IMG/VR virus record: IMGVR_UViG_3300036760_000504
Location: 1 to 53,893 of that record
Reading direction: 5' to 3' (one strand)
DNA: 53,893 nt
DNA from: a virus
Below are positions 12,995-38,903 of this stretch, piece by piece. The translations under genes and the position numbers were made by a program. Each line of letters opens with the position of its first letter. Positions within the stretch are counted from its first letter, which is position 1. Below the pieces are notes generated by a model. It searched no databases. It worked only from the letters and a program-made list of their open reading frames with translations, and had not been told where the DNA came from.

Positions 12995-13033
12995 GGCCGG
13001 AATCGTAGTCCCCAAAGGGTTATTTTGCAATGG

Positions 13034-13045: not shown

Positions 13046-13133
13046 AAGATTTGGCTCACTGGTTCTCCTGCTTAAACCATAACCGGGAAGGGAAAACACC
13101 CCTATCCTAAAATTCACTTGAACTTAGACACAC

Positions 13134-15141: not shown

Positions 15142-15266
15142 CCCGTCCGCGCCCCGACATCGAATACTACTACCGCTGCCATTGCAGCGCCATCCACTAC
15201 GGCGTTCGGTATCACGCCTGGTTCGTTTGTCTTAACTGTTGCAGGAAGGTTAGGGTGAGAGGGTAA
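15138..15266 (+). CDS. Small zinc-ribbon-like protein
   Basis: A 42-residue ORF starting with TTG that overlaps the upstream stop (TTGA), with AAAGGA 7 nt upstream. The product has CHC near residue 14 and CLNCC near residue 34, a likely zinc site, between aromatic residues (YYYRC). It ends 1 bp before the replication gene. Unknown function; the spacing and coupling argue that it is real. Confidence 0.6.
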   Translation: MTRPRPDIEYYYRCHCSAIHYGVRYHAWFVCLNCCRKVRVRG

Positions 15267-15267
15267 T

Positions 15268-17560: not shown

Positions 17561-17595
17561 CTTCCCCTGACCGCCGCCGGCCTGAGAGGATTGGT

Positions 17596-19245: not shown

Positions 19246-19375
19246 CTGCCCCGGCCCCCTGGATGTGGCCATCGCGATCCTGTCGCCGCTCATCGTGGCG
19301 GTGCTGACGGTGGTGTTTTTGCTGGGGTTTTGGGCGGCGGCGCTATGGCGGTGGGGGAGGGGAGAGGAAATTTAA
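19235..19375 (+). CDS. Small single-span membrane protein
   Basis: A 46-residue ORF starting at TTG with GAGGTG 4 nt upstream, overlapping the methylase stop by 11 bp. The product has a central hydrophobic segment (AIAILSPLIVAVLTVVFLLG) and a basic, tryptophan-containing tail (LWRWGRG). Unknown function. Confidence 0.55.
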   Translation: MKIDCPGPLDVAIAILSPLIVAVLTVVFLLGFWAAALWRWGRGEEI

Positions 19376-19399
19376 CCACAAAACGACAGGAGGGACGCT

Positions 19400-19609
19400 T
19401 TGAAAGAATCGGGCATTGTGAAATGGTTCAACGACGCTAAGGGGTTTGGTTTCATTGAGCGCAAAGGCAAGCCGGACGTGTTCGTGCATTATTCCGGGAT
19501 CGCCAGTAACGGCAAGGGGCGGCGGACCCTTTACAAGGGGAACTCGGTTGAGTTCGAGTTGGGCCAGGGCCCCAAGGGGCTTCAGGCGCTTGGCGTCATG
19601 GTCAAGTGA
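19400..19609 (+). CDS. Cold-shock domain protein (CspA-like)
   Basis: A 69-residue protein starting at TTG behind AGGAGGG. It has the single-strand nucleic-acid-binding motifs of the cold-shock domain: [16 protein letters not shown] (RNP1-like) and DVFVHYSGI (RNP2-like), then [15 protein letters not shown]. Length is normal for the family. It probably acts as an RNA chaperone or anti-terminator during infection. Phages take up such genes occasionally. Confidence 0.93.
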
Positions 19610-19627
19610 GCGGCAAGGAGAATAATC

Positions 19628-19879
19628 ATGGTTAGCTGGTTCTGGATTCCATTGGCGGCGTTCGGAGGCTTCATCTTGGGCGGCAATATCCTGGCGCTTT
19701 TATCATCTGGCCGGGAGGAAGATGCCTATTCTGATGGGTATGTAATTGGGCGTCATGTGGGATTTGAGGCCTGGATTAAGAGCATCGGGGGGGCAGGACC
19801 CGGGGGGCAAGCGGAACCGATATCCACCAACCCGCCGGACAATAATTGGAGTTCGGTTGAAAGGCTGGTGGCCCCATGA
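19628..19879 (+). CDS. Small membrane protein
   Basis: An 83-residue protein with an N-terminal membrane segment (WFWIPLAAFGGFILGGNILALL) and a polar tail with DAYSDGYVIGRHVGFEAW. A GGAG site precedes the ATG. It overlaps the next gene by 4 bp (ATGA). Similar short N-anchored proteins are common in phage early regions; function unknown. Confidence 0.7.
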   Translation: MVSWFWIPLAAFGGFILGGNILALLSSGREEDAYSDGYVIGRHVGFEAWIKSIGGAGPGGQAEPISTNPPDNNWSSVERLVAP

Positions 19880-20565
19880 AAAACTATATCAGCATGGGGT
19901 TTGGGGTTAATTCGGTCGCTCTGTACCTTGACCAGAAAGATAAAGGCGTAGATTTTGAGGCAGTCTATGTCGATCTTGAGTGTGATTGGCCCGAAACAAA
20001 AGAATATGTTGAAATGTTCTGCAATAAATATCCGGTGACAATTATTAAGCCAGGATATGTTAGGGAATCTTTAAGAAAGATTTATGATAATCTTTATGAT
20101 TATTGTATTGACATGAAAATCATTCCATATCGCACGCAAAGATGGTGTACAGCCAATTTTAAGGTTATTCCGTTGCTTCATTATTTCCAAACTCCATGTT
20201 TTGTCTTAATGGGCATAGACGCAGGAGAATCACATAGAGCAAAATTATCAAGCACTAAAGGAACTGAGAACCGTTTCCCCTTGATCGAAGATGGTATAGA
20301 CCGGAACGGTTGTATAGAAATCATTAAATCTCATGGATTGCCGGTTCCAGTAAAGTCAGGTTGTTGGTTTTGCCCTTTTCAACGGGTTTCCGAATTTAGG
20401 AAATTACGCAGATTGCATCCCGATCTATTCTGCAAAGCCGTAGAGATTGAAAAAAACTCTGGTAAATTTTTAGTGGCAACCAATACTTTGTCGAAAATCA
20501 TCAATGAGCCAGATGCCTTCCTTTTCGAGGAACTGGCTTATCCACCCTGCCAATGTGGGCTTTAA
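19876..20565 (+). CDS. PAPS-reductase/ATP-pyrophosphatase-like protein
   Basis: A 229-residue protein of the adenine-nucleotide alpha-hydrolase (PP-loop) type. The P-loop is SMGFGVNSVA in place of the usual SGGxDS. YVDLECDWPETKEYV, PYRTQRWCTANFKV and SGCWFCPFQ are typical of phage PAPS-reductase-like proteins; the cysteines could hold a metal. The gene is AT-richer than its neighbours, pointing to transfer. Relatives include DndC of phosphorothioate systems, so a nucleotide or DNA modification role is possible; alone it does not make a Dnd system. Confidence 0.75.
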   Translation: MKNYISMGFGVNSVALYLDQKDKGVDFEAVYVDLECDWPETKEYVEMFCNKYPVTIIKPGYVRESLRKIYDNLYDYCIDMKIIPYRTQRWCTANFKVIPLLHYFQTPCFVLMGIDAGESHRAKLSSTKGTENRFPLIEDGIDRNGCIEIIKSHGLPVPVKSGCWFCPFQRVSEFRKLRRLHPDLFCKAVEIEKNSGKFLVATNTLSKIINEPDAFLFEELAYPPCQCGL

Positions 20566-20566
20566 C

Positions 20567-20683
20567 ATGAAAAGACCTTCCAAAATCTTGAACAGAATCG
20601 TGGATAAGGTGCTGGCCTACAAGCCCAAGCCTAAAACCAAAAAGGCTAAGGATTCCAAGGATGAAGAACCAAATAGGGACTAA
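20567..20683 (+). CDS. Very small basic protein
   Basis: A 38-residue ORF starting MKRPSKILNRIVDKVLAYKP followed by a lysine-rich tail and an acidic end (DSKDEEPNRD). It starts 1 bp after the preceding stop. Tiny proteins with an MKRPSK-type start are frequent next to lysozyme-like genes of phages. Function unknown. Confidence 0.5.
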   Translation: MKRPSKILNRIVDKVLAYKPKPKTKKAKDSKDEEPNRD

Positions 20684-20734
20684 AGTATATAATTCCCTTA
20701 TTTTTGTACTCAAGCAAGCCTGGAGGCAGGAGGC

Positions 20735-21145
20735 ATGACCGGCCTGGCTATGGCGCTTCTGTTGGCCTGGATGCGGGTCTGCTCCCTGCACTATGGGGTG
20801 GAGCCGGAATTTGCTCTGGCGGTTGCCCGGGTGGAATCTGGGGTGCCAGGGGGCCCGGCGCTCCGGTGCGGACCCCTGGGACGATCGGGCAAATATTATG
20901 GGCCGTTCGGCTTACATCGGGACTTTCTGCGGCGCTGGCCTATTGACAATCCGTTTGTCAACGTCGAGATCGGAGTCAAGGCGCTTCGGGGCCAGGATAA
21001 GCTCCGGGTGCTGAGACGGTATAATCCTACACGATTGAACCGAGCTTATGAGCAGGCCGTGATGAGGCTCTATCGTCAAGAGAAGGCCAGGAGGCAAACC
21101 AATGAAACCGGCGACATGCGGGTTTTTTCATCCAAGCGCCATTAA
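20735..21145 (+). CDS. Lytic-transglycosylase-like protein
   Basis: A 136-residue protein behind AGGAGGC. It has an N-terminal hydrophobic stretch (TGLAMALLLAW) that may be a signal anchor, and the motif FALAVARVESG with the expected catalytic Glu of soluble lytic transglycosylases, followed by a glycine-rich loop and RRYNP near the C-terminus. The domain is short. It lies far from the lysis cassette, so it may act in DNA entry or serve as a second muralytic enzyme. Confidence 0.7.
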   Translation: MTGLAMALLLAWMRVCSLHYGVEPEFALAVARVESGVPGGPALRCGPLGRSGKYYGPFGLHRDFLRRWPIDNPFVNVEIGVKALRGQDKLRVLRRYNPTRLNRAYEQAVMRLYRQEKARRQTNETGDMRVFSSKRH

Positions 21146-21284
21146 CCCGAATGTCTGCGCCAAATGGATTAAACCCCTGGAACCCGGGAAGCCGCCTTTC
21201 TGCCTAGCCGATGAGGAGTGTCGGACCCAGGGGTTACGCTGGGCACCGCGGGCCGACTCGGATGATGATGGTGAGATTGACTAA
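21102..21284 (+). CDS. Small cysteine-containing protein
   Basis: A 60-residue ORF that overlaps the transglycosylase gene by 44 bp; AGGAGG lies 7 nt before its ATG. The product has four spaced Cys residues (TCGFF, NVCAKW, PFCLAD, EECRT) and an acidic tail (DSDDDGEID), suggesting a metal-binding mini-protein. Function unknown. Confidence 0.6.
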   Translation: MKPATCGFFHPSAINPNVCAKWIKPLEPGKPPFCLADEECRTQGLRWAPRADSDDDGEID

Positions 21285-21294
21285 GAGGGAAAGG

Positions 21295-21600
21295 ATGGCA
21301 AAGCCTCAGAAACCCGAAACAGCCTTGAAAAGGTCGTGCTCCCAACTCTTGCGAACGTTCGGGGGATTCTCTATCCCTATCCCTGGCGGCGCCTATGGAA
21401 TGCCAGGCGCCCCCGACCGGATAGTATTTTTTCAGGGGCAGGCTTTCGCAACTGAGTTTAAGGCGCCCGGCAAAAACCTGGGGCCAAAGCAAGTTGAGAT
21501 CAAAGAGCGCATTGAGGCCACCGGTTGCCCATACCTGCTCATCCGGTCGGTAAGGGATTTCGTGCAGGCCCTGGGCCTGCCAGTGAGGGGGCTGTTCTGA
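21295..21600 (+). CDS. VRR-NUC domain nuclease
   Basis: A 101-residue protein. ATG 21295 follows AGAGGGAAAGG and is preferred to the upstream frame opening at 21211. GMPGAPDRIVFFQGQAFATE followed by FKAPG gives the PD-x(n)-ExK site of the VRR-NUC family, and the length is that of the stand-alone domain. Such phage nucleases probably cut Holliday junctions or flaps during recombination and packaging. The stop overlaps the next start (TGATG). Confidence 0.85.
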   Translation: MAKPQKPETALKRSCSQLLRTFGGFSIPIPGGAYGMPGAPDRIVFFQGQAFATEFKAPGKNLGPKQVEIKERIEATGCPYLLIRSVRDFVQALGLPVRGLF

Positions 21601-21800
21601 TGCCAGGGCCACCACTCGCCACCATCATAATCCAGAAGATCGAGTTCTGGCGGGGCGTGCCGGTCATAGCCCAGGCCCTGGGGATGCACGAGCGCACGGT
21701 GCGGAGGCTGATAGCGGCGGGCAAGCTCCCGGTAAAGCGCGATGAAACCGGGGCATGGGTGCTTAATTCGCTCGACTATTACCGTTCGCTCCAAGGGTAG
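21600..21800 (+). CDS. Helix-turn-helix protein (HTH_17/excisionase type)
   Basis: A 66-residue protein with a winged helix-turn-helix (GVPVIAQALGMHERTVRRLI, then AAGKLPVKRD) and a short C-terminal strand. ATG 21600 overlaps the nuclease stop. It directly precedes a terminase-nuclease-like gene, so it could be a small terminase-type DNA-recognition protein. An excisionase or regulator is equally possible. Confidence 0.72.
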   Translation: MPGPPLATIIIQKIEFWRGVPVIAQALGMHERTVRRLIAAGKLPVKRDETGAWVLNSLDYYRSLQG

Positions 21801-21804
21801 GTGA

Positions 21805-22392
21805 GTGGAAGAACCAAAACCCAGATTTTATGCGTCGGTGAAGTGGGGAATCGAAAACCCGACCGTTATGCTGGTCGCCGTGTACACGCCGCCGCCAACA
21901 GACCACCTTCATGTCTTTCGGGAGTTGTATGAGGAGGGCTTTTACTTTGATGACCTCCTGCCTATTGCTAAGGCCTGGGCCGCAGAATTTAACATCAGGA
22001 AGTTTTTCGCAGACCCCAAGGAGCCGGAGTTTATCAAACGGATGCGGCGGCAACGGTTGTGGGCGGTGGAGGGCCGGGATGAGCTGGCTCTGGCCCGGAA
22101 TCTGATAGGCAAAAGGATGAGGCAATCAATAACAATAGCGGCGGCATTCAAGGGGGAGCACGACCCGGCCAAGCGGTCGGTGCTTATGAAGAGCATTGTC
22201 GGGGGGATCAGTTTTTCCCAGGACTGCCCCCGGACGGTGCAAGAGTTTTTCCATTATCGGATGCCGGAGAAAAATCCCAGGAAGCCGTCTCGGGACAAGC
22301 CCTTGGATATGGACAATTTCGGTATTGGGGCACTGCATTTTCTGGTTTTGGGGTTGGCGAGCGAGGTAACGCCGCGGGTGAGGTGGTTGTGA
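21805..22392 (+). CDS. Terminase-nuclease-like (RNase H fold) protein, first acid lost
   Basis: A 195-residue protein starting at GTG. RFYASVKWGIENPTVMLVAV matches the first strand of the large-terminase nuclease (usually G-D-W-G-x-x-N-P) but with Lys in place of the metal-binding Asp. The second and third acids seem present (FADPKEPEF and DMDNFGIGALHFL). It lacks any ATPase domain. It may be a decayed or regulatory copy of the nuclease encoded at 22977. Together with the preceding helix-turn-helix protein it forms a pair parallel to the genes at 22977 and 23611. Confidence 0.65.
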   Translation: MEEPKPRFYASVKWGIENPTVMLVAVYTPPPTDHLHVFRELYEEGFYFDDLLPIAKAWAAEFNIRKFFADPKEPEFIKRMRRQRLWAVEGRDELALARNLIGKRMRQSITIAAAFKGEHDPAKRSVLMKSIVGGISFSQDCPRTVQEFFHYRMPEKNPRKPSRDKPLDMDNFGIGALHFLVLGLASEVTPRVRWL

Positions 22393-22428
22393 CAATAAAT
22401 AGGGTGAATCATTGAAGGAGGTCAAGTA

Positions 22429-22614
22429 ATGGCTGAGGTAGTTCTGTCTGATGGGGAACAGCGGGAAGTAAAAGAGCTGAGGAAAGCTTTGGATAAGCTG
22501 GATGCGATCTACGACCAGGACCCCGAGGACCTTGAACTGATCGTGCCCACCGCCAAGGTTATGCGGCATCTGGCGCGTCTATTTCTGTGGGCGCATAAGG
22601 AGGGCAGAATCTGA
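22429..22614 (+). CDS. Small acidic helical protein
   Basis: A 61-residue protein behind GGAGG (7-nt spacing). It is mainly helical and charged (EQREVKELRKALDKLDAIYD) with a hydrophobic C-terminal half. It starts a run of small overlapping genes that ends with the terminase nuclease. Function unknown. Confidence 0.65.
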   Translation: MAEVVLSDGEQREVKELRKALDKLDAIYDQDPEDLELIVPTAKVMRHLARLFLWAHKEGRI

Positions 22615-22718
22615 TGGCATACGATCCGAGCAAAGACGTGGAGTTGAAGGCGTGGCGCATCCCATTCCGACCATGGCAGTATTGGGAGGCTTTGAAGTGC
22701 TCAAAGGCAACGGGCTGA
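22614..22718 (+). CDS. Possible 34-residue ORF
   Basis: Starts on the stop codon of the upstream gene (TGATG) and would encode an aromatic-rich peptide (AWRIPFRPWQYWEALK). It overlaps the next ORF by 67 bp in another frame, so only one of the two may be functional over that stretch. Confidence 0.3.
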   Translation: MAYDPSKDVELKAWRIPFRPWQYWEALKCSKATG

Positions 22719-22825
22719 TCATCCCCGACGGCACCCTGAATCACTTGGTGGAAACCTTGCTCCAGAAGGAGGCAGCGGGGGCCTTCATGAACAAGCTGGG
22801 ACTCAGACCCGGAGACCTAAAATGA
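22652..22825 (+). CDS. Small unknown protein
   Basis: A 57-residue ORF. GTG 22652 has GGAG 8 nt upstream and is favoured over ATG 22673, which has no ribosome site. It reads HPIPTMAVLGGFEVLKGNGL with a helical second half (LNHLVETLLQKEAAGAF). The stop overlaps the next start (ATGA). Function unknown. Confidence 0.5.
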   Translation: MAHPIPTMAVLGGFEVLKGNGLIIPDGTLNHLVETLLQKEAAGAFMNKLGLRPGDLK

Positions 22826-22980
22826 TGCTCTTCGGCCCGCCACCCAAGGACGGCTTCGTTACCTACGTGGATGCCAGGAAGGTGCGTTCTACAAACCCCG
22901 GTTACTGTTTCCTCAAATCCGGCTGGCGCCGGGTGGGGAAATCAAAGAGTGGGAAAATCCTGTTACAGGCAAACCAATGA
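22822..22980 (+). CDS. Small unknown protein before terminase nuclease
   Basis: A 52-residue ORF beginning MMLFGPPPKDGFVTYVDARK with a conserved-looking NPGYCFLKSGWRRVG segment. It overlaps both neighbours by 4 bp (ATGA at each end), so it is translated as part of a coupled chain. It is directly upstream of the terminase nuclease and could assist it, but I do not recognise the family. Confidence 0.6.
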   Translation: MMLFGPPPKDGFVTYVDARKVRSTNPGYCFLKSGWRRVGKSKSGKILLQANQ

Positions 22981-23489
22981 GCCGCAACCTTGCCGTTTTT
23001 GACTACCGCCCCGACTGGCCCCTCTTCCTGGCCCTTGATTTCGGCTGGTGGAACAACTTCACCGGCTGGGTGCAGCCGTCGGGAAACGGTGATCGGGTGA
23101 TCGTGCTCTACGGCCACTATCAGGAGATGCGAACCAATGAGGAAAACGCCAAGCTGGCCCTGGCCATTCACCAGGCCCGGGGTTACGGCCAACTCACCGG
23201 CGGCTGGGGCGACCCTTCCAAGCCGGAAGCGTTGCGTTCATATTCTCAGGTGTTCGGGGCCTTAATCCTGGGGGCCGGGGGCCGGGTAGAAGATGGCCAT
23301 GAACTAGTGCGCCGGTGGCTCAAGGCGGCGCAGATGACCCGGGGCGAGTCGGGACTGGTGTTCTCCCGGCATTGCCCGGCCCGGCTGTTCAAAGAGTGGC
23401 GAGACTACCGGGAGCATCGGCCGGGTATCGGGGCACATCATAGCTGTGACGCGGTGCGCTACTTTCTCAAGGGCTGGACGGGGCGATGA
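22977..23489 (+). CDS. terL: Large terminase, nuclease half (separate gene)
   Basis: A 170-residue protein with the RNase H-like nuclease of large terminases but no ATPase. It starts with DYRPDWPLFLALDFGWWNNF, the usual linker and first catalytic Asp, continues with GWGDPSKPEAL (second acid) and ends in HHSCDAVRYFLKGW (third acid). The matching ATPase half is at 27292-28248. The two lengths (170 plus 318) add up to about a normal TerL of 490 residues. The product should cut concatemeric DNA in a complex with the ATPase. Confidence 0.8.
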   Translation: MSRNLAVFDYRPDWPLFLALDFGWWNNFTGWVQPSGNGDRVIVLYGHYQEMRTNEENAKLALAIHQARGYGQLTGGWGDPSKPEALRSYSQVFGALILGAGGRVEDGHELVRRWLKAAQMTRGESGLVFSRHCPARLFKEWRDYREHRPGIGAHHSCDAVRYFLKGWTGR

Positions 23490-23610
23490 GAGCACGCTGA
23501 GCGATCCGCCCATGCAATGTGTAGGGTGTGGGGGAGTTCGGGGCAAGGCGGGGCACAAACTGATTTGAGACTTAATCTGTCCACAAGCGCCGGGAGGAGC
23601 GGCACGGCAT

Positions 23611-24093
23611 ATGGGTAAGCGGGAAGAAACCGATAATCTGGCGATGGAGGTCTATTCGCTAACTTTGCAAAACATGAGCAAGGTGCAGATCGCCAAATAT
23701 CTTGGTATCGACCGGAAGCAGGTTTACCGCCTGATTAAGCGCTACAAAGCCATCCTCCGGTGGCTCGCTGACCATATCGACGGCGCGCTGCACCTGGGGG
23801 AAACCCTTGTCGGCCTTAAACAGTTATACCGGGATGCCCTGGAAAACATTGGGAAGTCGGACCCCGGAAGCGCGGTTGCCGTGGGCTGGGCGAGGGTAGC
23901 CCTGGACGCCCTGAAGGAAATGAAGAAACTCCTGCAAGAGTGCGGGGCGGTGTTCAAAATGCCGGAGTCGGTAGAGGACGGGATACCGTTCGATGACCCG
24001 GAGATTCGGAGAGATTACATGGAACTTCAGGCGCGGGCTTGGGCCAAGGGCAAGGTACTGGCCGGGGGGAAGGAGGGGAGCGGGGATGAGTAA
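23611..24093 (+). CDS. terS: Probable small terminase subunit
   Basis: A 160-residue protein with an N-terminal helix-turn-helix (MSKVQIAKYLGIDRKQVYRL, about residues 27-46), a helical oligomerisation-like centre and an acidic C-terminus (GKEGSGDE). This is the domain order of many small terminases, and it follows the terminase nuclease gene. A plain DNA-binding regulator cannot be excluded. It overlaps the ParB-methylase gene by 8 bp. The 120 bp upstream hold only a possible 18-codon ORF. Confidence 0.6.
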   Translation: MGKREETDNLAMEVYSLTLQNMSKVQIAKYLGIDRKQVYRLIKRYKAILRWLADHIDGALHLGETLVGLKQLYRDALENIGKSDPGSAVAVGWARVALDALKEMKKLLQECGAVFKMPESVEDGIPFDDPEIRRDYMELQARAWAKGKVLAGGKEGSGDE

Positions 24094-25285
24094 GAAGCCG
24101 GTGGGATTGAAGGATTTCAAAACTGAAATGGTGGCGGTGGCGGACTTGATCCCCTATGTCAACAATCCAAAGGCGCACCCGGCCGGCCAGGTGGACAAGA
24201 TCGCCTCGTCAATCAAAAATTTCGGCTTCCTGGTACCCCTGGTAGTGGACGGGGGAAATGAAATCGTGGCGGGCCATGGGCGCTATGAAGCAGCGCAGAA
24301 GCTCGGCCTGGGGGTGGTGCCATGCGTCCGGGCGGATAATCTCACGCCTGGTGAGGTCAGACTTTTCAGGATTGCTGACAACCGCACCGCCGAAAGCGCC
24401 TGGTTCCCCGAATCGCTGGCACTCGAACTCAAGGCCCTGGAGGAAATGGACTTTGATTTGGGGTTGACCGGGTTTGACCTTGATGAGCTTGAGGAAATGG
24501 GAATCGGCGCGGGCAACGACCCTTCCCCGGAAGACCCCGGCCCACAGATTGACCGGGCCGCGGAGTTGCAGGAGAAGTGGGGGACGAAGCGGGGCCAGAT
24601 ATGGCAGGTCGGGAGACATAGGGTTACGTGCGGAGATAGTAATAAGCAATCCGATGTTAATTTATTATTAGGAAATAATAAACCAGATACGTTAATTTTT
24701 GATCCTGAATGGGATCAGATGAATGGAATTATAAAATATAACTGCGAATATTATAAGTCAGTATTGGCTTTTACCGATGCAAGAAGAATCGGGGAATCTA
24801 TAAAAATATTCGGAATACCTACTTGGTTATTTGTTTGGGATGCTCAAGCATGTTGGTACACCCCAAATAGACCATTACAGAGGGCTAAATATTGTTTGTG
24901 GTATGGAGATATTACTAAATATAACTTCGATGGGGCACATTATGGGGAGCCATTAGAATCGAAAACAGTGAGCAATACCCGCGGCACATATAATTATAAA
25001 TCAGACCCAAGAGGCAAACACTTAGCTGACATTTACTGTGAACAACTTACGAAAGTTCACAAAGAAAGCGGCCACAGCCATAGTAAACCTTTAGATTGGA
25101 TGCGGTGTTTAATCGGTTGCTGTGGAATTGGTGATGTTTTTGATCCTTTCCTTGGAAGTGGTGCAAGCCTTGCAGCTTGCGAGAAATTAGATAGGATTTG
25201 TTATGGAATAGAAATTAATCCGGCATTTATAGCCGTAGCCTTGGATTTGGCCGAACAAATGGGCTTGCAACCGGAGTTATTATGA
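24086..25285 (+). CDS. ParB-like domain fused to a DNA methyltransferase
   Basis: A 399-residue protein. Residues 1-110 are a ParB/Srx-type nuclease or CTPase domain (GFLVPLVVDGGNEIVAGHGR and PGEVRLFRIADNRTAES). Residues about 180-399 are an AdoMet methyltransferase with VFDPFLGSGASLAACE near residue 350. The catalytic motif IV reads FDPEWDQ in place of DPPW/Y, so the usual Pro is a Glu. From about 24640 the DNA becomes strongly AT-rich, coinciding with the methylase domain, which suggests domain replacement. The 3' end overlaps the leftward radical SAM gene by 85 bp. ATG 24086 is chosen; the frame opens earlier inside the upstream gene. Confidence 0.85.
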   Translation: MSKKPVGLKDFKTEMVAVADLIPYVNNPKAHPAGQVDKIASSIKNFGFLVPLVVDGGNEIVAGHGRYEAAQKLGLGVVPCVRADNLTPGEVRLFRIADNRTAESAWFPESLALELKALEEMDFDLGLTGFDLDELEEMGIGAGNDPSPEDPGPQIDRAAELQEKWGTKRGQIWQVGRHRVTCGDSNKQSDVNLLLGNNKPDTLIFDPEWDQMNGIIKYNCEYYKSVLAFTDARRIGESIKIFGIPTWLFVWDAQACWYTPNRPLQRAKYCLWYGDITKYNFDGAHYGEPLESKTVSNTRGTYNYKSDPRGKHLADIYCEQLTKVHKESGHSHSKPLDWMRCLIGCCGIGDVFDPFLGSGASLAACEKLDRICYGIEINPAFIAVALDLAEQMGLQPELL

Positions 25286-26013
25286 GCCGCCCGCAAATCC
25301 TTTTTGATCAGATAGGGCTTCCCGAGTCTTTCCAATTGGGCAATGGCCCTCTCCCGGAATCCAGGCCAGTCAATTTCTTTGGCCAGGGGATGATAGTTCA
25401 GTTTTCCCACTTTGAAGAAATCCACAAGGGGGGCCGTGGCATCCAGGAGTCGGTACACCGCTTCCGGGTCAATGACGGGCTCAAAGGAAACCCACGTTTT
25501 GATACCAGCATCATGGGCGATCCTGAGAGATTCAATCCGGTCTGCCGGGAGAGCGGCGCCGGGTTCCCACTCCACGCTGACAACCGGGTCGTCATGGGTC
25601 AAGGTTACGCTCCAGGCGTTGAGGGGGTTCATCTTGAGCAGGTCCATATCTCGGATGATTCCCCAGGAGCCGCCTTTGGTAAGAATGGTAGCCGTGAGTT
25701 TGTTTTCCATGAGGGTTTTCAGGGCCATGCGGGTGATCTTTTTGGTTTTCTCACAAGGCTGGTAGGGGTCACTGGTGAAGCTCAAAAGGATTTCCCGAAG
25801 GTCACCGGCCATCTTTGGGGCTTCGTTAAACAGTGCGGTCAGGATGCCGGGCCGGGCTTGAATGTAATCCGGAGAAGAGAATTTCTTCCGGTCGGTAAAT
25901 GTGGCAGATGGTGCAAAACAGTAAACACAGGCATGGGAACAGCCTTTGTAGAGATTCAGGGCCAGGGGAGAATATTCTTTAGCCTTGCCACGGGGTTCAT
26001 AGATTGCTGGCAT
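25201..26013 (-). CDS. Radical SAM protein, SplB/photolyase-like family
   Basis: A 270-residue leftward gene. LNLYKGCSHACVYCFAPS holds the CxxxCxxC 4Fe-4S motif that binds AdoMet, followed by LSFTSDPYQPCEKT and LTATILTKGG, typical of the Rv2578c/SplB-like group often called DNA-repair photolyase. Length fits. The enzyme may repair or modify nucleic acid by radical chemistry. It is the last gene of the leftward cassette and overlaps the XRE gene by 17 bp at its start. The last 28 residues are encoded antisense to the methylase gene end. Confidence 0.88.
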   Translation of the reverse strand: MPAIYEPRGKAKEYSPLALNLYKGCSHACVYCFAPSATFTDRKKFSSPDYIQARPGILTALFNEAPKMAGDLREILLSFTSDPYQPCEKTKKITRMALKTLMENKLTATILTKGGSWGIIRDMDLLKMNPLNAWSVTLTHDDPVVSVEWEPGAALPADRIESLRIAHDAGIKTWVSFEPVIDPEAVYRLLDATAPLVDFFKVGKLNYHPLAKEIDWPGFRERAIAQLERLGKPYLIKKDLRAAHNNSGCKPICSAKSKATAINAGLISIP

Positions 26014-26182
26014 TAGATTTTTCCTCCAGACAGGTAAGAAATTTAGAAACCCAATCAGGGATATTGCGATATCCCTGTTCCCAGTCCTCCACCCGGCGCA
26101 CCGTGACCCCCAGGGCGGCGGCTAAATCCTGTTGCCGCCAGCCCTTAGAGTTTCGTAAATCTTTGAGGTCAGCCGGAGACAT
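25997..26182 (-). CDS. Small XRE-family regulator
   Basis: A 61-residue leftward protein that is almost only a helix-turn-helix domain: GWRQQDLAAALGVTVRRVED (about residues 15-34). GGAGG lies about 12 nt upstream of the ATG. It sits between the acidic protein and the radical SAM genes. The promoter of this cassette carries a perfect palindrome TCCCG-N5-CGGGA between -35 and -10, the likely autoregulatory operator of this protein. Confidence 0.85.
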   Translation of the reverse strand: MSPADLKDLRNSKGWRQQDLAAALGVTVRRVEDWEQGYRNIPDWVSKFLTCLEEKSNASNL

Positions 26183-26183
26183 A

Positions 26184-26858
26184 TTAATCTTCAGCCTCCA
26201 TTGCGGCCAGGATTTGTTTCACCTGTTCCAAATCAGATTTTTTGCAGAACAGGGCCACCGTCTCACTCTGCTCATCCGTAAATTTTTCAATCAATTTATC
26301 AAACGGGTCGGGGTTTTCCTGGATTTGCTCAAACTGCTCTCTGGAGAGTACCCCGTCATTATAGCCGCCATTATCATTCCAGGCCAACATGACCCAATCG
26401 GGATTCACGGTATCGGAGTCGATCATCCGCCATTCGTCCACAACCCTATAGGTGATGGTGCCCCAGGGATAGGTTTTAATGTCCGGCTCAGAGCAATAAT
26501 GCTCGCTCCGCAGGGGGATAAAAAACTGATGATTGTTGCCGTTCCAAACGTTACCAGTGATTTCCGAGAGTTGCGCTCGGTGCAAACTGCCCTCATTGGA
26601 GATCATGTCGTAAATTTCGTTTTCATTGTCCTCAGTAATCTCGATTTTGGTTCCATCATCGGTAATGAGGGTGATGATGGTTTCGCCCCGACCGATGTTA
26701 CCAAAACAGCCCCGAGTGTCGATGCGCCGATATTCCGCCCAATCCAGCATGTAGGCCAGATTTGCCCTGGTGGCATCCATTTCCTCTGGGACCGCCCACG
26801 CGTCCCGATCACTGCGGTAAATGCCCTCGGCCAATTCGGTGATCATTTGAATTTTCAT
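26184..26858 (-). CDS. Acidic protein of unknown family
   Basis: A 224-residue leftward protein. The ATG at 26858 lies 7 nt after AGGAGG and is chosen over that at 26864. It is rich in Asp and Glu (EITEDNENEIYDM, QEQ-type tail with AAMEAED) and in Trp, with no membrane segment or known catalytic motif that I can see. The high negative charge invites a DNA-mimic or anti-restriction idea (ArdA-like size), but this is an inference. It is first in the leftward cassette, translated with the XRE and radical SAM genes. Confidence 0.7.
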   Translation of the reverse strand: MKIQMITELAEGIYRSDRDAWAVPEEMDATRANLAYMLDWAEYRRIDTRGCFGNIGRGETIITLITDDGTKIEITEDNENEIYDMISNEGSLHRAQLSEITGNVWNGNNHQFFIPLRSEHYCSEPDIKTYPWGTITYRVVDEWRMIDSDTVNPDWVMLAWNDNGGYNDGVLSREQFEQIQENPDPFDKLIEKFTDEQSETVALFCKKSDLEQVKQILAAMEAED

Positions 26859-26888
26859 TGTCATGCCTCCTGTAGATTTGTTAAATAT

Positions 26889-26917
26889 AGATTAATCCCG
26901 GTTTGCGGGAATGTCAA
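26889..26917 (-). promoter_or_regulatory. Leftward cassette promoter with operator
   Basis: Read leftward: TTGACA (26917-26912), 17-bp spacer, TAATCT (26894-26889). The spacer contains the perfect palindrome TCCCG-N5-CGGGA (26910-26896). AGGAGG and the start of the acidic protein follow. The palindrome differs from the main repressor operator, so the cassette has its own control. Confidence 0.82.
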
Positions 26918-26961
26918 GAAAAAAAGAGAAGGTAAGTGAAAAATAATTTCGAGGCCCCCCC

Positions 26962-27288
26962 ATGCGCAAAATAGCCCTCATCCGCTCATCCCCCACGCTC
27001 TACCGGTTGGCGCTCGCCTGGCCCGCGGTGGATAGGGAGGATGTCACCCCGGCCCTGGATGCCCCGGCGGACCCCTGGGCCTGCATCCGGTTCGACTTCA
27101 CCCGCCTGGCATATCTGGCCGATGTGTCCGCCGGAGTTGCCCTCGCTGGGTTTGACCGGCTCAAGGCCCATGGGATCATCACCCCTGATGGCGGCCTGGC
27201 CCCTACGGTAGAGAAGTATTTCCGGGCTGAGGGGCTGGCCGGGTTCGGGGTGAAGGTGAAGCCGCCAAAAGCCCCGGCAGCCGAGTAA
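26962..27288 (+). CDS. Winged-helix-like protein before terminase ATPase
   Basis: A 108-residue protein. FTRLAYLADVSAGVALAGFD followed by RLKAHGIITPDGG resembles a helix-turn-helix plus wing, and the C-terminus is a short basic tail (VKVKPPKAPAAE). It ends 3 bp before the terminase ATPase gene. It may be a second DNA-recognition subunit for packaging, or an unrelated regulator. Confidence 0.6.
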   Translation: MRKIALIRSSPTLYRLALAWPAVDREDVTPALDAPADPWACIRFDFTRLAYLADVSAGVALAGFDRLKAHGIITPDGGLAPTVEKYFRAEGLAGFGVKVKPPKAPAAE

Positions 27289-27291
27289 CCC

Positions 27292-28248
27292 ATGTTCACC
27301 GCCGACAACCGCCGCCTGATTGAGCACTATCGCCAGCACCCATTTTCCAATGACGCTGAGCTCCTACTGTTCGTCAAGGCCCTGTTTAAGGGGAAGGCCA
27401 GCGAACCCCTCAGCATCCCCCAGGCCCAGGTATGCCCCGAACATGATTCCCCCGCCCAATATTTCTGCGACGCCGTCTTTGAACGCACCCTGAACGCTAT
27501 CTGCTGGGCGAACCGGGGCGGCGGCAAGACCCTCCTGGGGGCGCTGGTGACTTGGCTGGATACGGTATTCAAGGCGGGCTGCTCCACCCAAGTCCTGGCC
27601 GGGTCCCTTGAGCAGAGCAACCGCATGTACGAACACATGACCGGCGGGGGGGATGGCTGGGGCCTGGTGAACGAAAACTTCTATCACCTGCTCGCCTCAG
27701 CCAAACAAATGCGCCGGGGGAAAACTGACAAAGACGGCGAAATGCTCACCCGGTCGATGGTGCTGAAGAACTTCTCAAGCATCAACCTGCTTACCGCCTC
27801 CCCCAAGAGCGTCCGGGGCGCACATCCCCAGAAAGTCAAGCTCGATGAGATTGACGAAATGGACCCCCGGATTTATGAGGCGGCGCTGTCAACCCCGATG
27901 ACTAAGGGCGGGCACCAGGCCAGTACCCACATTTACAGCACCATGCACAAGACTTACGGCCTTATGCAGCGGGTCGTAGAAGAGGCCCCGGCACGGGGCT
28001 ATCGGCTTTACAAGTGGTGTGTTCTGGACGTCTTGGAGCGGTGCAAGGGTCGGGAATGCACCGGGTGCGATCTGTACCCCGAATGCCAGGGCCGGGCCCG
28101 GGAAGCAGACGGCTACTATTCGATTGAAAACGCTATCACCAAAAAGCGCCAGGTGTCTGAACAGACGTGGCTTTCGGAGTACCTGTGCCAGATTCCTAGC
28201 AGTGAAGGGTTGATTTACCCTGAGTTCGATATGTGTCTTGTGGTCTGA
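27292..28248 (+). CDS. terL: Large terminase, ATPase half (separate gene)
   Basis: A 318-residue protein with the packaging motor only. Walker A is CWANRGGGKTLLGAL (near residues 72-85), Walker B is VKLDEIDEMD (near 182-191), and STHIYSTMHKTYGLM is like the coupling motif. A cysteine cluster (CKGRECTGCDLYPEC) may bind zinc. It ends SEYLCQIPSSEGLIYPEFD plus five residues, exactly where other TerL proteins continue into the nuclease. That nuclease is encoded 4 kb upstream (22977). No nuclease remnant follows the stop codon. Confidence 0.88.
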   Translation: MFTADNRRLIEHYRQHPFSNDAELLLFVKALFKGKASEPLSIPQAQVCPEHDSPAQYFCDAVFERTLNAICWANRGGGKTLLGALVTWLDTVFKAGCSTQVLAGSLEQSNRMYEHMTGGGDGWGLVNENFYHLLASAKQMRRGKTDKDGEMLTRSMVLKNFSSINLLTASPKSVRGAHPQKVKLDEIDEMDPRIYEAALSTPMTKGGHQASTHIYSTMHKTYGLMQRVVEEAPARGYRLYKWCVLDVLERCKGRECTGCDLYPECQGRAREADGYYSIENAITKKRQVSEQTWLSEYLCQIPSSEGLIYPEFDMCLVV

Positions 28249-28316
28249 GGTACACCCCCCTCGCTAACCACCCCCGTTATTCGCTCCGATTAACCCCCCC
28301 TGAGAATTAAAAAAAA

Positions 28317-28372
28317 ATTAGCGGACGCAAAATAAAACTTGACATAACCATTAGCGTGTGCTAACCTATAAT
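28317..28372 (+). promoter_or_regulatory. Rightward promoter P2 with tandem repressor operators
   Basis: -35 TTGACA (28339-28344), 17-bp spacer, -10 TAACCT (28362-28367), with a TATAAT at 28367-28372 overlapping. Operator ATTAGC-N4-GCTAAC (28350-28365) overlaps the -10; a second site ATTAGC-N4-GCAAAA (28317-28332) lies 33 bp upstream. This matches the promoter of the Cro-like gene. Transcription would begin near 28374 and enter the non-coding RNA region. A (CAAT)-type run follows at 28375-28390. Confidence 0.85.
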
Positions 28373-28960
28373 CAACCAATCAATCAATCATAATCAAACC
28401 AGGAGGTTAGCGCCAACCGACAAAAAACCAAAAAAATCAGGGCGGGGGTGGCCAGGCTCACGGCGGCCAGTAAAAAAAAGCAGAAACCGGACCCCAGCCA
28501 ATCAGAGACGGGATAACAACCGTAGAGGGTAGCGCCTCATAAAAATTGCAAATAGAGCGCAGGAGGCCCCAGCGGCCCCGAGGCTCCCCCCGGAAACCAG
28601 ATCGAATCTGGCAGTTGCGGGTAGGCGGCACGACCGAAAGTGACCTGGCGGCAAGCGCCAAGGTGATGAGCCTGAATCTTGAGACAATTTAGGGGAGCAC
28701 GGCCCCGGCAACCGTGGCGAAGCTAAAAACCGGAAACGAGGCGAACCAGAGGCGGCGCGACGTAGGGAAACCCCAGGTAAGGCCGGCAGAGTAGCCCAGG
28801 CGGTGAAGTGTAGGCCGGGGAGTATCCGAAAGCGCCAAGCATGGAGAGCAGCCGGGAAGGGCGACGGTGGTGATGACCTTTAACTGAAGCAAGGCTCTGA
28901 ACGGGGTTCGGGAGTTCTGGCGGATTCCTGGACCTTCTTGAGCGCACTTGCTCAAATCTA
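28372..28960 (+). ncRNA. Candidate large structured non-coding RNA (about 590 nt)
   Basis: This stretch between promoter P2 and the next gene has no plus-strand ORF with a start codon and ribosome site, and the minus-strand ORFs lack ribosome sites. It is full of clean hairpins: GGA-GCC/GGC-TCC (28562-28587), CCAGAT-CGA-ATCTGG (28597-28611) enclosed by CCCG/CGGG (28589-28592 with 28618-28621), ACCTGGCG/CGCC-AGGT (28643-28664), CCTGAA/TTTAGG (28671-28693), CACGG/CCGTG (28698-28716) and TTGAGC/GCTCAA (28938-28955). The linkers are A-rich, with GGAAAC, CGAAAG and GGGAAACCC, as in ornate RNAs. Length and phage context recall the ROOL and GOLLD classes, but I cannot tell if it belongs to either. 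Confidence 0.6.
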
Positions 28961-28979
28961 AAAACTTGGAGTCAAGATC

Positions 28980-29114
28980 ATGCAAAGCACAGTTCAGCGA
29001 ATCCACCCAGAAGCGAACCAGAAACCCGAACTCAACCCCTTACCTGGGAAGCACTCATGTTACGTCTGCGCCGATAATCAGGGTTGCAAACCAGGCCCCA
29101 AAAGGAGGTCGTGA
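28980..29114 (+). CDS. Small cysteine-containing protein
   Basis: A 44-residue ORF with GGAG 8 nt before its ATG. The product has a polar first half and then HSCYVCADNQGCKPGP, three cysteines that could bind metal. Its TGA overlaps the ATG of the zinc-ribbon gene (TGATG), so the two are coupled. It is the first coding sequence after the candidate RNA. Confidence 0.6.
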   Translation: MQSTVQRIHPEANQKPELNPLPGKHSCYVCADNQGCKPGPKRRS

Positions 29115-29296
29115 TGCCCTTATACAAATATCTCTGCGTGGATTGTGGAGAGGAGGACTCCCGAATTGCCGGGGTTGACGACTACACGGCCCTGTGCATT
29201 GAGTGCGGCGGTCCCATGCTGAGGCTGGACGAGGATATTTGGGCGCCGTTGTGGTCGGAGCAAGAGGCCGAGGCGGTGCAGGAGGTGGAACCGTGA
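29114..29296 (+). CDS. FmdB-like zinc-ribbon protein
   Basis: A 60-residue protein starting MPLYKYLCVDCGEEDSRIAG with a second pair CIECGG, the two CxxC knuckles of FmdB-type zinc ribbons. The C-terminus is acidic. AAAGGAGG lies just upstream of ATG 29114. Probably a small DNA- or protein-binding regulator of the early operon. Its stop overlaps the next GTG start. Confidence 0.8.
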   Translation: MPLYKYLCVDCGEEDSRIAGVDDYTALCIECGGPMLRLDEDIWAPLWSEQEAEAVQEVEP

Positions 29297-30480: not shown

Positions 30481-30515
30481 GGTAAAGGGGTCCATACCCG
30501 GGCCCCTACCTTTTT
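30481..30515 (+). terminator. Rho-independent terminator-like hairpin
   Basis: GGTA-AA-GGGG (30481-30490) pairs with CCCC-TACC (30503-30510) around a 12-nt loop and is followed directly by TTTTT. It lies just before the ribosome site of the next gene, so it may attenuate rather than stop transcription. Confidence 0.65.
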
Positions 30516-33302: not shown

Positions 33303-33304
33303 GA

Positions 33305-33337
33305 GGGGGCCGCTCACCCCGGCCCCCTAATTTTTTT
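33305..33337 (+). terminator. Rho-independent terminator
   Basis: GGGGGCCG (33305-33312) pairs with CGGCCCCC (33320-33327) around a 7-nt loop, then TAA and seven T. It follows the second pentanucleotide array and precedes the lipoprotein gene by 17 bp. Confidence 0.85.
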
Positions 33338-35417: not shown

Positions 35418-35450
35418 TAGGTGGCAGTAAAATACTTACCAAACTCAGCG

Positions 35451-35486
35451 CCGGGGTCCCTTCGGGGGTCCCGGCTCTTTTTTTTG
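35451..35486 (+). terminator. Strong rho-independent terminator ending the early operon
   Basis: GCCGGG-GTCCC (35451-35461) pairs with GGGGT-CCCGGC (35466-35476) around a TTCG tetraloop, giving an 11-bp stem with two G-T pairs, followed by TCTTTTTTTT. This is a textbook terminator and separates early recombination genes from the late structural operon. Confidence 0.93.
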
Positions 35487-35672: not shown

Positions 35673-38600
35673 ATGGGACTCATACGCCGAGGATTGGAAT
35701 ATGTGCAGCGATTGGGTGGCCTCTTGGGGAGGGGTTCGGACGACGGGCGTGATATAGTGATGCGCCAGGCCGATCCCATCTCCCCCACCTTCGGGGCCGT
35801 CGAACAGAGGTTCATGGCCGGCTCTTTTAGCCTGTCAAACCTCTTGCCCGGCGTGACAAAACCATACACCCAGCACGTCTGGGTCTATGCCTGTGTCAAT
35901 GCCATCGCCCAGAACATCGCCGGGGTCCCCCTGAATTTCTACTCCGGCACGAAAAAGAACAAGCGCCTGATAGAGTCAGGTCCCCTGGTCAAGTTATTTG
36001 AAACCCCGAACCCCATGATGAGCGGGTATCAGCTCATCGAAGCCACGCTCATTTTCCTGGGGATCACCGGGGAGGCGTTCTACATCCTGGACCGGCCCAA
36101 TATCACCGCCCTGCCGAGAGAAATCTGGACCTTTCACCCTAGCCGGTTTGAGCATGTGCCAGCGAAGAATGGCGGAGGCCAGGGGTGGATTTACAGCAAG
36201 GGCAGCCAACGAATCCCCCTGGAACCGTATGAGATGGTCCATTTCAGGCGGTTCAATCCCTACGATGATTACCGCGGCCTTTCTCCTATTGAGGTGGCCC
36301 GGCTGAGTCTTGAACAGGATAACTATGCCGCGCAATACAACCGCAATTTTTTCATCAATGGCGCCCAGCCCGGCGGGGTCCTGGAAAGCAAAGAGAACCT
36401 GATGCAGGAGGAGTTTGACCGCCTCCTGGCGCAATGGAATGACCGGCACCAGGGCATCGACAAGGTCCACCAGATAGCCCTCCTGGAAGGCGGAATAACT
36501 TACAAGCAAACCAGCCTGTCTCAATCAGACATGCTCTTCCTGGAAGGCCGGAAGCTGAATCGGGATGAAATCCTGGGCGGGATTTACAAGGTCCCCCTGG
36601 GTGAACTTGGGCTTAATGAAGATGTGGGATCTGAAGCGCGGGAAAAGGTGCGCCGGAAACAGTTCTGGGAGACATGCCTTGACCCCCAGATGGTCCTCCT
36701 CGAGATGGGGTTATGGAGCCAGCTATGTCGTGACCTCACCGGCCCTGAAGTATGGCCGGAGTTTGACCGCAAATCCGTCCCGGCCCTTCAGGAAGACCGG
36801 GACCTGCTCTTGGGGCAGGCGGGGAAACTTTGGGCCATGGGCTATCCGGCCAACGTGGTCAACGAATATCTGGATCTGGGGTTGCCTAAGATTGAGGGCG
36901 GCGATACTGGCTACCTCCCCTTCAATTTGCAGCCGGTAGGGTCCGTCGCTTCCGCTCCCTCGGCTACTGAACCGCAGAAAGCTACGGTCATCTCAATTCA
37001 GGATGCTCCGCTAAAATCCCTGCCCGCCCCAGCCAAGGCCAAGCATGACCCTAAGACATATTGGCAGGAATGGAACAAACTGCGCTCTGCTCTGGAGGAA
37101 AAGGCCCACAGCAAAATCAAGAGATTTTTCTATGAGCAGCGCAAGGTCCAACTCAAACTCCTGGCCGACAAGCTGGGCGGGAAAGCGGTCTTCAAAGAGT
37201 TTGTGGACGACCTCCTGTTCCCGGCGGCCGAAGCCAACGAGCAACTCCAAAAGACATTATCCGGTCTTTACCTGAACATCGGCCAGGCCGCCGGTGAAGA
37301 CCTCTACGCCGGTCTGAATTTTGACCCTTCGGACTTTGTTATGGCCGACAGCGACGCCATTTCCGTTCTGCTGGAAAAGCTCGTGCAGAAGGTGGTGGAT
37401 ATTAACGAGATCACCCGCAGTCAACTCCGGGACGCTATATCTGAGGGCCTGTCGAAAGTTGAGTCTGTCGGCAAAATTCAGGACCGGGTGCGAGAAGTCT
37501 TCAACTCCTATGAGCACCCTGACAAAGGATCGTTTTCCCGTAGTTTGACCATTGCCCGAACGGAAACGGGCCAGGCCATGGCAACGGCTCGGGATTCGGC
37601 CATGGACCAGTTGAAGGTGGAGAAACTTGAGTGGGGCACGGCGGGGGACGGGGAAGTCAGGGAATCCCACGCGGCCCAGGATGGGATGATAGTGCAGCGC
37701 GGTGAAACCTTCCCGAACGGCTGTCGTTATCCCTGCGATCCGGCGGGGGAGGCGGGGGAAGTGATCAACTGCTTTCTGGACCACCAGGTTCCTATTTTCA
37801 CTACTGAAGGTTGGAAACCCATTGGCAAGATTCGGCCTGGCGACATGGTGCTTACTCATAGAAACCGCTTCCGGCCTGTTTTAAGGCTGTCACCCCAGCC
37901 CACTTATGCCGGCAAAGCAGTCAAGTTGGTCCTGTCTGGTACTACAGGGAACGGACGCCGCGGCATCTTGATTACCCCGAACCACAAATTTTTAATGGCG
38001 GGGGGTTCATGGAAGCGGGCACAGGACATTCGGGCTGGCGAGTCTGTGCAGGTCATGGCTTCTTTTTGCGGGTATTGCGGCACCCCCATCCCCTACTGGC
38101 GGAAATACTGTGACCATTCCTGCTTGAGCAAAGCCATTACCAAAAAGCAATGGAGCAACTCGGCCCACCGGGAAAACATCAGCCGCAAGGCCAGTGCGCA
38201 GATGATAAGGGAATATGCGGCGGGGATAAGAGACCCGAAAGAAATTGTCAAAAAGGCCCGGAGGGTTTGCTTCGAGAAGTATGGTGCCGGTGGAATTTTT
38301 GCAATAGCGGATCGGTCTCCAGGGACGCCGTTTCGAGAAAGCATAGAGGCCGGAATCACCAGGAAATGGGGGTCTCGTCTGGCAATGCTCAAAAAGACGG
38401 CCTTCGTTGGTTGCGGCAAGGCAAGTTGGCATGGCTCAAGTTTTGACCGGAAGCTGAAAGCAGTGTTAGACAAGGAAGGCAGAGGATACATTCAACAGTT
38501 CCGGGTAGGTAAAAGGCGAGTCGATTTTTACCTGCCTGATGAAAAGCTCTTCATTGAATGTGACACCCCTATCTATCACGGCCCAGAAAGCGTGTTTGGC

Positions 38601-38903
38601 TACCATAGAAACGAACGGAAAAGAGACCTCGAAATTCTTACTCAATACCCAGACCACAAAATAGAGCACATAATTTTTGACGGCAATGCTCCCCCCCGCC
38701 ATAAGACCTTCGACCTGCTCACTTTAAATCATGCCGGAACTTACGCCCAAATTAAAGTTGAAATATCCGAGGCCGACATTGTTGAACTCAGGAAGCCCCG
38801 GCGCACCTATAACTTCGCAGTAGAAGAGGATGAAAGCTATATAGCCAAGGGGTTTGTCGCATCGAACTGCCGGTGTGTCAGCATTCCCGTACTGGAGGGT
38901 TGA
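35673..38903 (+). CDS. Portal protein fused to a MuF-like head protein, interrupted by an intein
   Basis: A 1,076-residue precursor. Residues about 1-430 are an HK97-type portal (HVWVYACVNAIAQNIAGVPL, ETPNPMMSG, GLSPIEVARL). Residues about 450-710 after splicing are a Mu gpF-like minor head domain (SLTIARTETGQAMATARDSA, RESHAAQDGMIVQRGE, FPNGCRYPCDP). The MuF signature VINCRC is interrupted after VIN by a 366-residue intein (37770-38867). The spliced protein would have 710 residues. It forms the DNA entry ring and a minor head component. No Shine-Dalgarno precedes the ATG. Confidence 0.93.
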   Translation: MGLIRRGLEYVQRLGGLLGRGSDDGRDIVMRQADPISPTFGAVEQRFMAGSFSLSNLLPGVTKPYTQHVWVYACVNAIAQNIAGVPLNFYSGTKKNKRLIESGPLVKLFETPNPMMSGYQLIEATLIFLGITGEAFYILDRPNITALPREIWTFHPSRFEHVPAKNGGGQGWIYSKGSQRIPLEPYEMVHFRRFNPYDDYRGLSPIEVARLSLEQDNYAAQYNRNFFINGAQPGGVLESKENLMQEEFDRLLAQWNDRHQGIDKVHQIALLEGGITYKQTSLSQSDMLFLEGRKLNRDEILGGIYKVPLGELGLNEDVGSEAREKVRRKQFWETCLDPQMVLLEMGLWSQLCRDLTGPEVWPEFDRKSVPALQEDRDLLLGQAGKLWAMGYPANVVNEYLDLGLPKIEGGDTGYLPFNLQPVGSVASAPSATEPQKATVISIQDAPLKSLPAPAKAKHDPKTYWQEWNKLRSALEEKAHSKIKRFFYEQRKVQLKLLADKLGGKAVFKEFVDDLLFPAAEANEQLQKTLSGLYLNIGQAAGEDLYAGLNFDPSDFVMADSDAISVLLEKLVQKVVDINEITRSQLRDAISEGLSKVESVGKIQDRVREVFNSYEHPDKGSFSRSLTIARTETGQAMATARDSAMDQLKVEKLEWGTAGDGEVRESHAAQDGMIVQRGETFPNGCRYPCDPAGEAGEVINCFLDHQVPIFTTEGWKPIGKIRPGDMVLTHRNRFRPVLRLSPQPTYAGKAVKLVLSGTTGNGRRGILITPNHKFLMAGGSWKRAQDIRAGESVQVMASFCGYCGTPIPYWRKYCDHSCLSKAITKKQWSNSAHRENISRKASAQMIREYAAGIRDPKEIVKKARRVCFEKYGAGGIFAIADRSPGTPFRESIEAGITRKWGSRLAMLKKTAFVGCGKASWHGSSFDRKLKAVLDKEGRGYIQQFRVGKRRVDFYLPDEKLFIECDTPIYHGPESVFGYHRNERKRDLEILTQYPDHKIEHIIFDGNAPPRHKTFDLLTLNHAGTYAQIKVEISEADIVELRKPRRTYNFAVEEDESYIAKGFVASNCRCVSIPVLEG
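37770..38867 (+). mobile_element. Intein with an atypical (Vsr/DUF559-like) homing endonuclease
   Basis: Residues 700-1065 of the portal-MuF precursor. Block A starts at Cys (CFLDHQVPIFTTEGWKPIG), block B is ITPNHKFLM, and the C-terminal blocks read YNFAVEEDESYIAKGF-VASN followed by the extein Cys. The penultimate residue is Ser, not the usual His. Between the splicing blocks are a zinc-finger-like CGYCGTPIPYWRKYC and a nuclease fold with RRVDFYLPDEKLFIECD and YHG, which resembles the Vsr/DUF559 or EDxHD type and not LAGLIDADG or HNH. Splicing restores VINCRC exactly. Confidence 0.88.

Follow-up and report, generated by a model that had tools for sequence, protein, structure and literature searches.

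A conserved structured leader RNA of about 600 nt at the head of a lambda PL-like phage recombination operon, and its possible role in antitermination

We analyzed the viral record IMGVR_UViG_3300036760_000504 from position 1 to 53,893 (53,893 nt, one strand, 5' to 3'), hereafter called the window. The locus considered here follows an ORF (27292-28248, +) whose 318-aa product is a TerL-type ATPase with recognizable Walker A (GGGKT) and Walker B (LDEIDE) motifs, which the Pfam model Terminase_6N matched only at E = 0.02. The ATPase motifs were all that we could recognize in this TerL-like protein; we saw no nuclease domain within this reading frame, and the terminase may therefore be split. On the other side lie genes for a Gp3-like recombination factor, a PD-(D/E)XK exonuclease and an SbcC-like ATPase, and in its content this operon corresponds to the PL operon of lambda. 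The placement between a packaging ATPase and a recombination operon, as described in the original prediction from the sequence, is therefore correct. Further downstream, positions 35673-38903 (+) encode a portal protein fused to a Mu-F-like domain, with an intein-like insertion of HNH-type similarity near the C-terminal part. The features of the locus are listed in Table 1.

Table 1. Features of the leader RNA locus and its operon in the window
Feature	Position	Strand	Basis or remark
Operator-like site TTAGCGGACGCAAA, 1 mismatch	28318..28331	.	enriched motif, also found around the repressor-like ORF at 12 kb
Early promoter: -35 TTGACA 28339-28344, -10 TAACCT 28362-28367, 17-nt spacer	28339..28367	+	layout common to relatives
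Palindromic operator TTAGCgtgtGCTAA within the promoter	28351..28364	.	enriched motif
Large structured leader RNA, ~600 nt	28372..28979	+	blastn homology with L002/L003, full-length nhmmer matches, covariation
H-type pseudoknot PK1 (TGGCC/GGCCA; GCT/AGC; A-rich crossing loop)	28449..28481	+	same topology in 25 RNAs
Hairpin H1: near-invariant octaloop RAYAGCAA on a 4-bp stem that changes; copy in the window ACGG-GATAACAA-CCGT	28508..28523	+	8 paired stems; z = -4.1
GGTAGG motif and hairpin H2, loop NACCGAAA	28620..28645	+	5 different stems, all paired
H-type pseudoknot PK2 (GGGG/CCCC; CACGG/CCGTG)	28692..28716	+	25 RNAs
Hairpin H5 position; window copy a GGCC/GGCC variant	28781..28816	+	11 distinct stems in 22 other RNAs
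boxA-like ACCTTTAAC upstream of the 3' hairpin (a lead only)	28876..28884	+	
3' module: helix X closing hairpin Z	28889..28951	+	double-sided compensation; z = -4.3
Alternative hairpin Y (TTGAGC/GCTCAA), overlapping helix X	28938..28955	+	weaker support, from 3 doubly changed pairs
First ORF of the operon, 44 aa, preceded by SD TTGGAG	28980..29114	+	apparently a shorter version of the ~100-aa protein of L003, L004 and L020
Intrinsic terminator within the operon	30486..30507	+	
Intrinsic terminator within the operon	33304..33328	+	
Strong intrinsic terminator between operon and portal gene	35447..35478	+	

The promoter and the phage's own operators of the original prediction were found. In addition to the TTGACA at 28339-28344, the window contains eight TTAGCNNNNGCTAA-type sites, against 0.94 ± 0.90 expected, a count that none of 100 shuffles reached; two of them lie at the leader promoter (28318 and 28351), and another five surround an ORF at 12029-12475 with a weak HTH match. 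Beside this repressor region, the ORF at 11070-11870 (+) has a Caspase domain (Pfam Peptidase_C14, E = 9e-18) and possibly encodes an abortive-infection or regulatory protease. As the -10 element we consider TAACCT more likely than TATAAT, because the 17-nt layout is kept in the relatives L003, L004, L116 and L020; the alternative would give a 22-nt spacer. Transcription is predicted to start near 28374, and the block conserved in blastn with L002 and L003 begins at ~28373, about the predicted start of the transcript. While the relatives keep this layout, they differ in their palindromes: L003 and L004 have different ones at the operator position, and the site of L116 is of the window's type, which suggests that promoter control is conserved and that the operator varies by phage. 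In ten loci (L158, L160, L162, L163, L164, L166, L167, L171, L173, and L176) there is an AT-rich stretch upstream of the RNA, and it ends in a palindromic promoter-like GCACTTAGGCATACTGAGTGCATC..TATTAT, that is, another repressor type.

Scans based on the terminase and Gp3 gave relatives; pattern and profile searches, together with a covariance model (R1) built on the 3' end, extended the set of copies, and the best match in a reversed-sequence control of the search had E = 1.8. We obtained 28 distinct full or nearly full copies, located in phage contigs and prophages, with pairwise identities down to 46%, lengths of ~600-730 nt and at least six structural elements. Segments appear to have been exchanged among them in a mosaic fashion, as some pairs are alike in one half and unlike in the other. 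The host genomes that carry the RNA are Deltaproteobacteria metagenome bins (labeled Deltaproteobacteria, Syntrophobacterales or Syntrophales); it occurs in 8 of the 29 genomes examined of the host class, and in a sample of 395 genomes of the phylum, the matches outside that class were limited to G001 and a partial remnant in G342. Some smaller variations were also seen. An insert of ~60 nt (TGGTTTTTGGGTGGGCCGATAACGAACCC...) just 5' of the 3' hairpin is common to L009, L110, L169, L171, L158, L176 and L159; solitary, decayed-looking pieces of the 3' part occur in host genomes (L178:1626-1507 and L168:1766-1657, minus strand); and a group II intron domain (L163:3322-3469; Rfam group-II-D1D4-7, 126 bits) lies near a prophage copy, not within the leader RNA.

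The longest plus-strand ORF in the window copy has 48 codons, and when we looked for a conserved reading frame on both strands of 26 homologues, neither ORF position nor ORF length was kept. A protein-coding reading of 28372-28979 was rejected, in line with the original prediction of a region devoid of usable ORFs. The same prediction spoke of many well-formed hairpins, which could not be demonstrated from one sequence, as folding of the window copy was no better than that of shuffles (z = -0.21), but became clear from the homologues. H1, H2, helix X and hairpin Y were located by their loop or an anchor and not by complementarity. At the position fixed by the loop, H1 shows its eight different paired stems in a set that includes three stray regex matches, which are unpaired. 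For the 3' module, 91% of cells pair in 24 copies and the double-change cells number 53, compared with 20 ± 3 for shuffled data (0 of 500), while sliding the partner by one column lowers pairing to ~54-59%. RNAalifold independently found 22 consensus pairs in this module, 11 of them with double-sided compensation. Wobbles are mostly G-U (95 cells versus 12 for A-C), and since G-U far exceeds A-C, it is the plus-strand RNA on which selection acts. Helix X and hairpin Y overlap, so that a switch between the two is possible.

PK1 and PK2 were read by eye, and the strands of PK1, PK2 and H5 were picked by complementarity, for which reason their near-100% pairing is not evidence alone. In the place of PK2, however, a strict rule of 4+4 bp was satisfied by 20 of 25 RNAs, compared with 0.8% of segments after shuffling and 2.4% of windows taken elsewhere in these RNAs, and its stem 2 occurs in ten or more different sequences. 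The crossing loop of PK1 is 65% A versus 29% overall; stem 2 of this pseudoknot is short in the window copy (3 bp). H5 is 98% paired in the 22 other RNAs, with strands so chosen, and the window variant stands outside that table. RNAalifold gave poor structures on whole MAFFT alignments of 10 and 12 sequences, which we attribute to alignment slips, and succeeded on the shorter modules. An all-pairs G-test with a simulated null returned only four pairs at E ≤ 0.2, all four canonical; these E-values are rough, because the null under-simulates change (2.9 versus 4.3 steps per column). With compensatory changes present and a conserved ORF absent in the relatives, the anticipated large, repressor-controlled, structured non-coding RNA is well supported, and 28372-28979 is almost certainly a conserved leader RNA of this kind.

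To what family might it belong? A search of Rfam 15 with positions 28200-29150 at E ≤ 10 gave as its sole match a chance lncRNA on the opposite strand (E = 5.8), and at gathering thresholds no match over the leader RNA was found in 20 homologous loci. The group I and group II intron covariance models did not match it in these Rfam searches, and there are no tRNA genes in the window. Blastn against 50,697 phages and 72,556 plasmids yielded no genuine match, which places the family outside those collections, and no paper describing the RNA was found in the open-access literature, subscription journals lying beyond that search. The suggested identity with ROOL or GOLLD was accordingly not upheld by Rfam, and the other branch of the original prediction survives: the RNA appears to be a member of none of the known families tested and would represent a new class. 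ROOL is likewise phage-encoded, ~600 nt long, rich in pseudoknots and without an ORF (PMC12286853); the leader RNA, in contrast, has no tRNA neighbors, heads an mRNA and has no Rfam match. In phages ROOL often lies near tRNA islands, and it forms a homo-oligomeric nanocage. With GOLLD our RNA shares a large size and a phage origin. GOLLD combines a conserved 3' region with greater variability at the 5' end; in the leader RNA, the best-aligned part is the 3' module, which suffices to find most genome homologues, but the 5' pseudoknot is kept as well. GOLLD, however, often exceeds 800 nt and is found near tRNAs, whereas our RNA is an early-operon leader that Rfam does not match. The decamer GCGAACCAGA is present at 28741 and 29013 as reported, but it does not qualify as a feature of the RNA because a third copy lies at 42161 and the nearest relative, L003, does not keep it.

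The RNA is closely coupled to the operon that follows. Its structured part ends at ~28971, and the transcript runs on into the mRNA of the small ORF at 28980-29114. In the copies with sequence that far, the 3' module is followed by an SD and a start codon, usually within ~30 nt, and in those with sequence beyond the 3' hairpin we found no T-run that could make a terminator of its own. Lacking such a terminator and having SD and ATG at once, the RNA is read as part of an mRNA. That it is a leader joined to a gene and not a free RNA had gone unseen before, and it changes the likely function. The first gene behind the RNA differs between phages, yet L003, L004 and the RNA-less L020 share one and the same first protein. 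Its gene comes directly after the promoter in L020, so the leader is optional (insertable or deletable) and not needed for making the first protein. Portions of the 3' module are found again ahead of later operon genes in L116, L005, L161 and L172. Copies of the module or of the last hairpin were located at 7703-7790 and 8073-8140 on the reverse complement of L116, at L005:3884-3963 and at L172:295-385, and one of the L116 copies is fused to an intrinsic terminator.

Downstream of 26 RNAs we counted 35 strong intrinsic terminators in 102 kb (0.34/kb; shuffled expectation 2.0), and upstream, on the same strand, 5 in 90 kb (0.06/kb), so that they are 5-6 times denser behind the RNA. Several are found 60-630 nt behind it (L077 at +280, with a 14-bp stem; L121 at +295; L116 at +581), L191 has them at +246, +537 and +840, and in L171 and L158 the one at +58 lies within an ORF. 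In the window, three terminators lie in the RNA-led operon and none in the 15.7 kb of co-directional genes tested at 12,541-28,250. Such a density suggests that something must let polymerase pass. On the other hand, no terminator was seen in the 4-7 kb examined of L003 and L110, both of which have the RNA, and RNA-less relatives also have terminators (L025, one in 10 kb; L022, three in 10 kb).

In L005 and L161 the leader is short: only the 3' part of the RNA is kept, and a boxA-like YTCTTTGACAACC stands right after the promoter. This element resembles the host-type boxA of the rRNA operon in genome G004, TGCTCTTTGACAAGTG. The short leaders with the host-type boxA CTTTGACAACCAAATAAAGG span L005:3371-3590 and ~2020-1800 on the minus strand of L161. 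As the two are close kin, the replacement amounts to one or two events. The canonical boxA (YGCTCTTTRACA) is matched or nearly matched in L005 and L161, whereas the window copy has an 8-base boxA-like core only, and the canonical form was not found in the large RNA copies. A boxA-like YCTTTRAC precedes the 3' hairpin by 14-22 nt; the exact motif occurs in 6 of 26 script-found copies and in the window copy, against 0.02-0.3 expected with kinship uncontrolled, and it is absent from the large RNAs where the insert sits. A pattern search of host genomes for boxA beside 'GAACAGC' gave nothing.

Based on the terminators behind the RNA, the boxA in L005 and L161 and an analogue at the same position, putL of phage HK022, we consider cis-acting processive antitermination of the PL-like recombination operon the likeliest function, with a confidence that falls somewhat short of even. 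Once the repressor leaves, RNA polymerase would transcribe the leader first, and the nascent RNA would fold into two pseudoknots, several hairpins with near-invariant loops and the long 3' hairpin. The folded leader, alone or with host Nus factors, would then stay with the polymerase and convert it to a terminator-resistant form, allowing expression of the genes behind the operon's intrinsic terminators. The mode would be that of the HK022 put RNA or of a lambda/rRNA nut (boxA) site, in an RNA ~8 times larger than put. Against this proposal, the early right (PR-like) operon of the window has neither a copy of the RNA nor terminators, and 600 nt is far above the size that known antiterminator RNAs need. 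Early operons of temperate phages, moreover, often contain terminators irrespective of an antiterminator.

The leader RNA would be the first element transcribed from the repressor-controlled promoter, predicted from sequence, of a PL-like operon, as putL is. The put RNAs, too, are non-coding, lie directly behind repressor-controlled early promoters and, as putL, head a PL-type operon with terminators, and the early lambdoid genes lie behind terminators (PMC9378689). They measure ~70 nt, however, and consist of two stem-loops, in contrast to ~600 nt with at least two H-type pseudoknots, and they occur at both early promoters, whereas the window record has one copy of the leader RNA; no sequence relation between them was found. 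The put RNA suppresses termination in cis and needs no phage protein for this. With the rRNA and lambda nut sites (boxA, boxB; NusB-NusE) the link is the host-type boxA at the same place in two short-leader relatives, along with the YCTTTRAC followed by a hairpin in some large RNAs; the large RNAs are nevertheless without a canonical boxA, and their bulk has no nut counterpart. Processive antitermination is also known for the EAR (epsC) RNA of Bacillus. EAR is a structured 5' leader as well, but it has ~120 nt and belongs to cellular exopolysaccharide operons, and our RNA has no Rfam match; a description of the epsC motif is given in PMC2864571.

The main rival to antitermination is that the leader is cut out to become a stable trans-acting 'ornate' RNA, perhaps oligomeric and functionally similar to ROOL and GOLLD. 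Its ~600-730 nt, multiple pseudoknots, phage origin and missing ORF do recall ROOL (659 nt) and GOLLD (PMC12286853), and the long 3' hairpin with its alternative fold could be a processing site. We nonetheless regard this as unlikely, given that the RNA leads into an SD and start codon within ~30 nt, that its own terminator, tRNA neighbors and an Rfam match are all absent, and that a 3' module recurring before other operon genes fits a cis element. The solitary modules before other genes would suit a cis element that controls translation or mRNA stability of the operon, acting like a riboswitch or through a bound phage protein, in which the 3' module would switch between X and Y; the SD follows the module at a short distance, and both overlapping elements show compensatory changes. 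But the SD lies outside both X and Y, the variety of first genes among the phages is atypical of a riboswitch, and the large upstream body would be left unexplained, making this a rather improbable reading.

The RNA might instead counter host defences as an optional early product made at lytic onset, for instance by acting as a decoy for a nuclease or an RNA-sensing system of the host; this would account for the early expression expected from the promoter, for the presence or absence of the RNA among relatives and for the mosaic exchange of segments. We give it little credence, since it has no known partner, nothing specific was found, and the RNA is strongly coupled to the operon and its terminators. 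The terminase ATPase gene adjoins the RNA in the loci examined, as would be expected if conservation were at the DNA level, in a packaging (pac/cos) or replication site. This is very improbable: compensatory changes and the asymmetry of G-U over A-C bespeak strand-specific selection on RNA, and conservation begins at the promoter. The least probable alternative, a decayed gene or chance conservation with no structured RNA, would agree with the ordinary single-sequence folding energy (z = -0.21) but is already refuted by the comparative data, in which covariation is far above shuffles and no conserved frame exists.

Returning to antitermination, we propose, more tentatively, that this ~600-nt RNA represents a new class of phage RNA that acts in cis as an antitermination machine, is many times the size of put or EAR and may stand in for boxA/Nus at the head of a PL-type operon. 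ROOL and GOLLD are large phage RNAs of unknown function whose contexts give few hints, and they remain a standing puzzle. The leader RNA family matches them in size and complexity, but its context is informative: fixed promoter control, a fixed operon, terminators, natural deletions and the boxA of two relatives allow one concrete function to be tested directly. Should the RNA prove to be an antiterminator, RNA-based control of polymerase can use a scaffold of ribozyme size; otherwise, it would still constitute a new large phage RNA family, with pseudoknots that suit structure determination.
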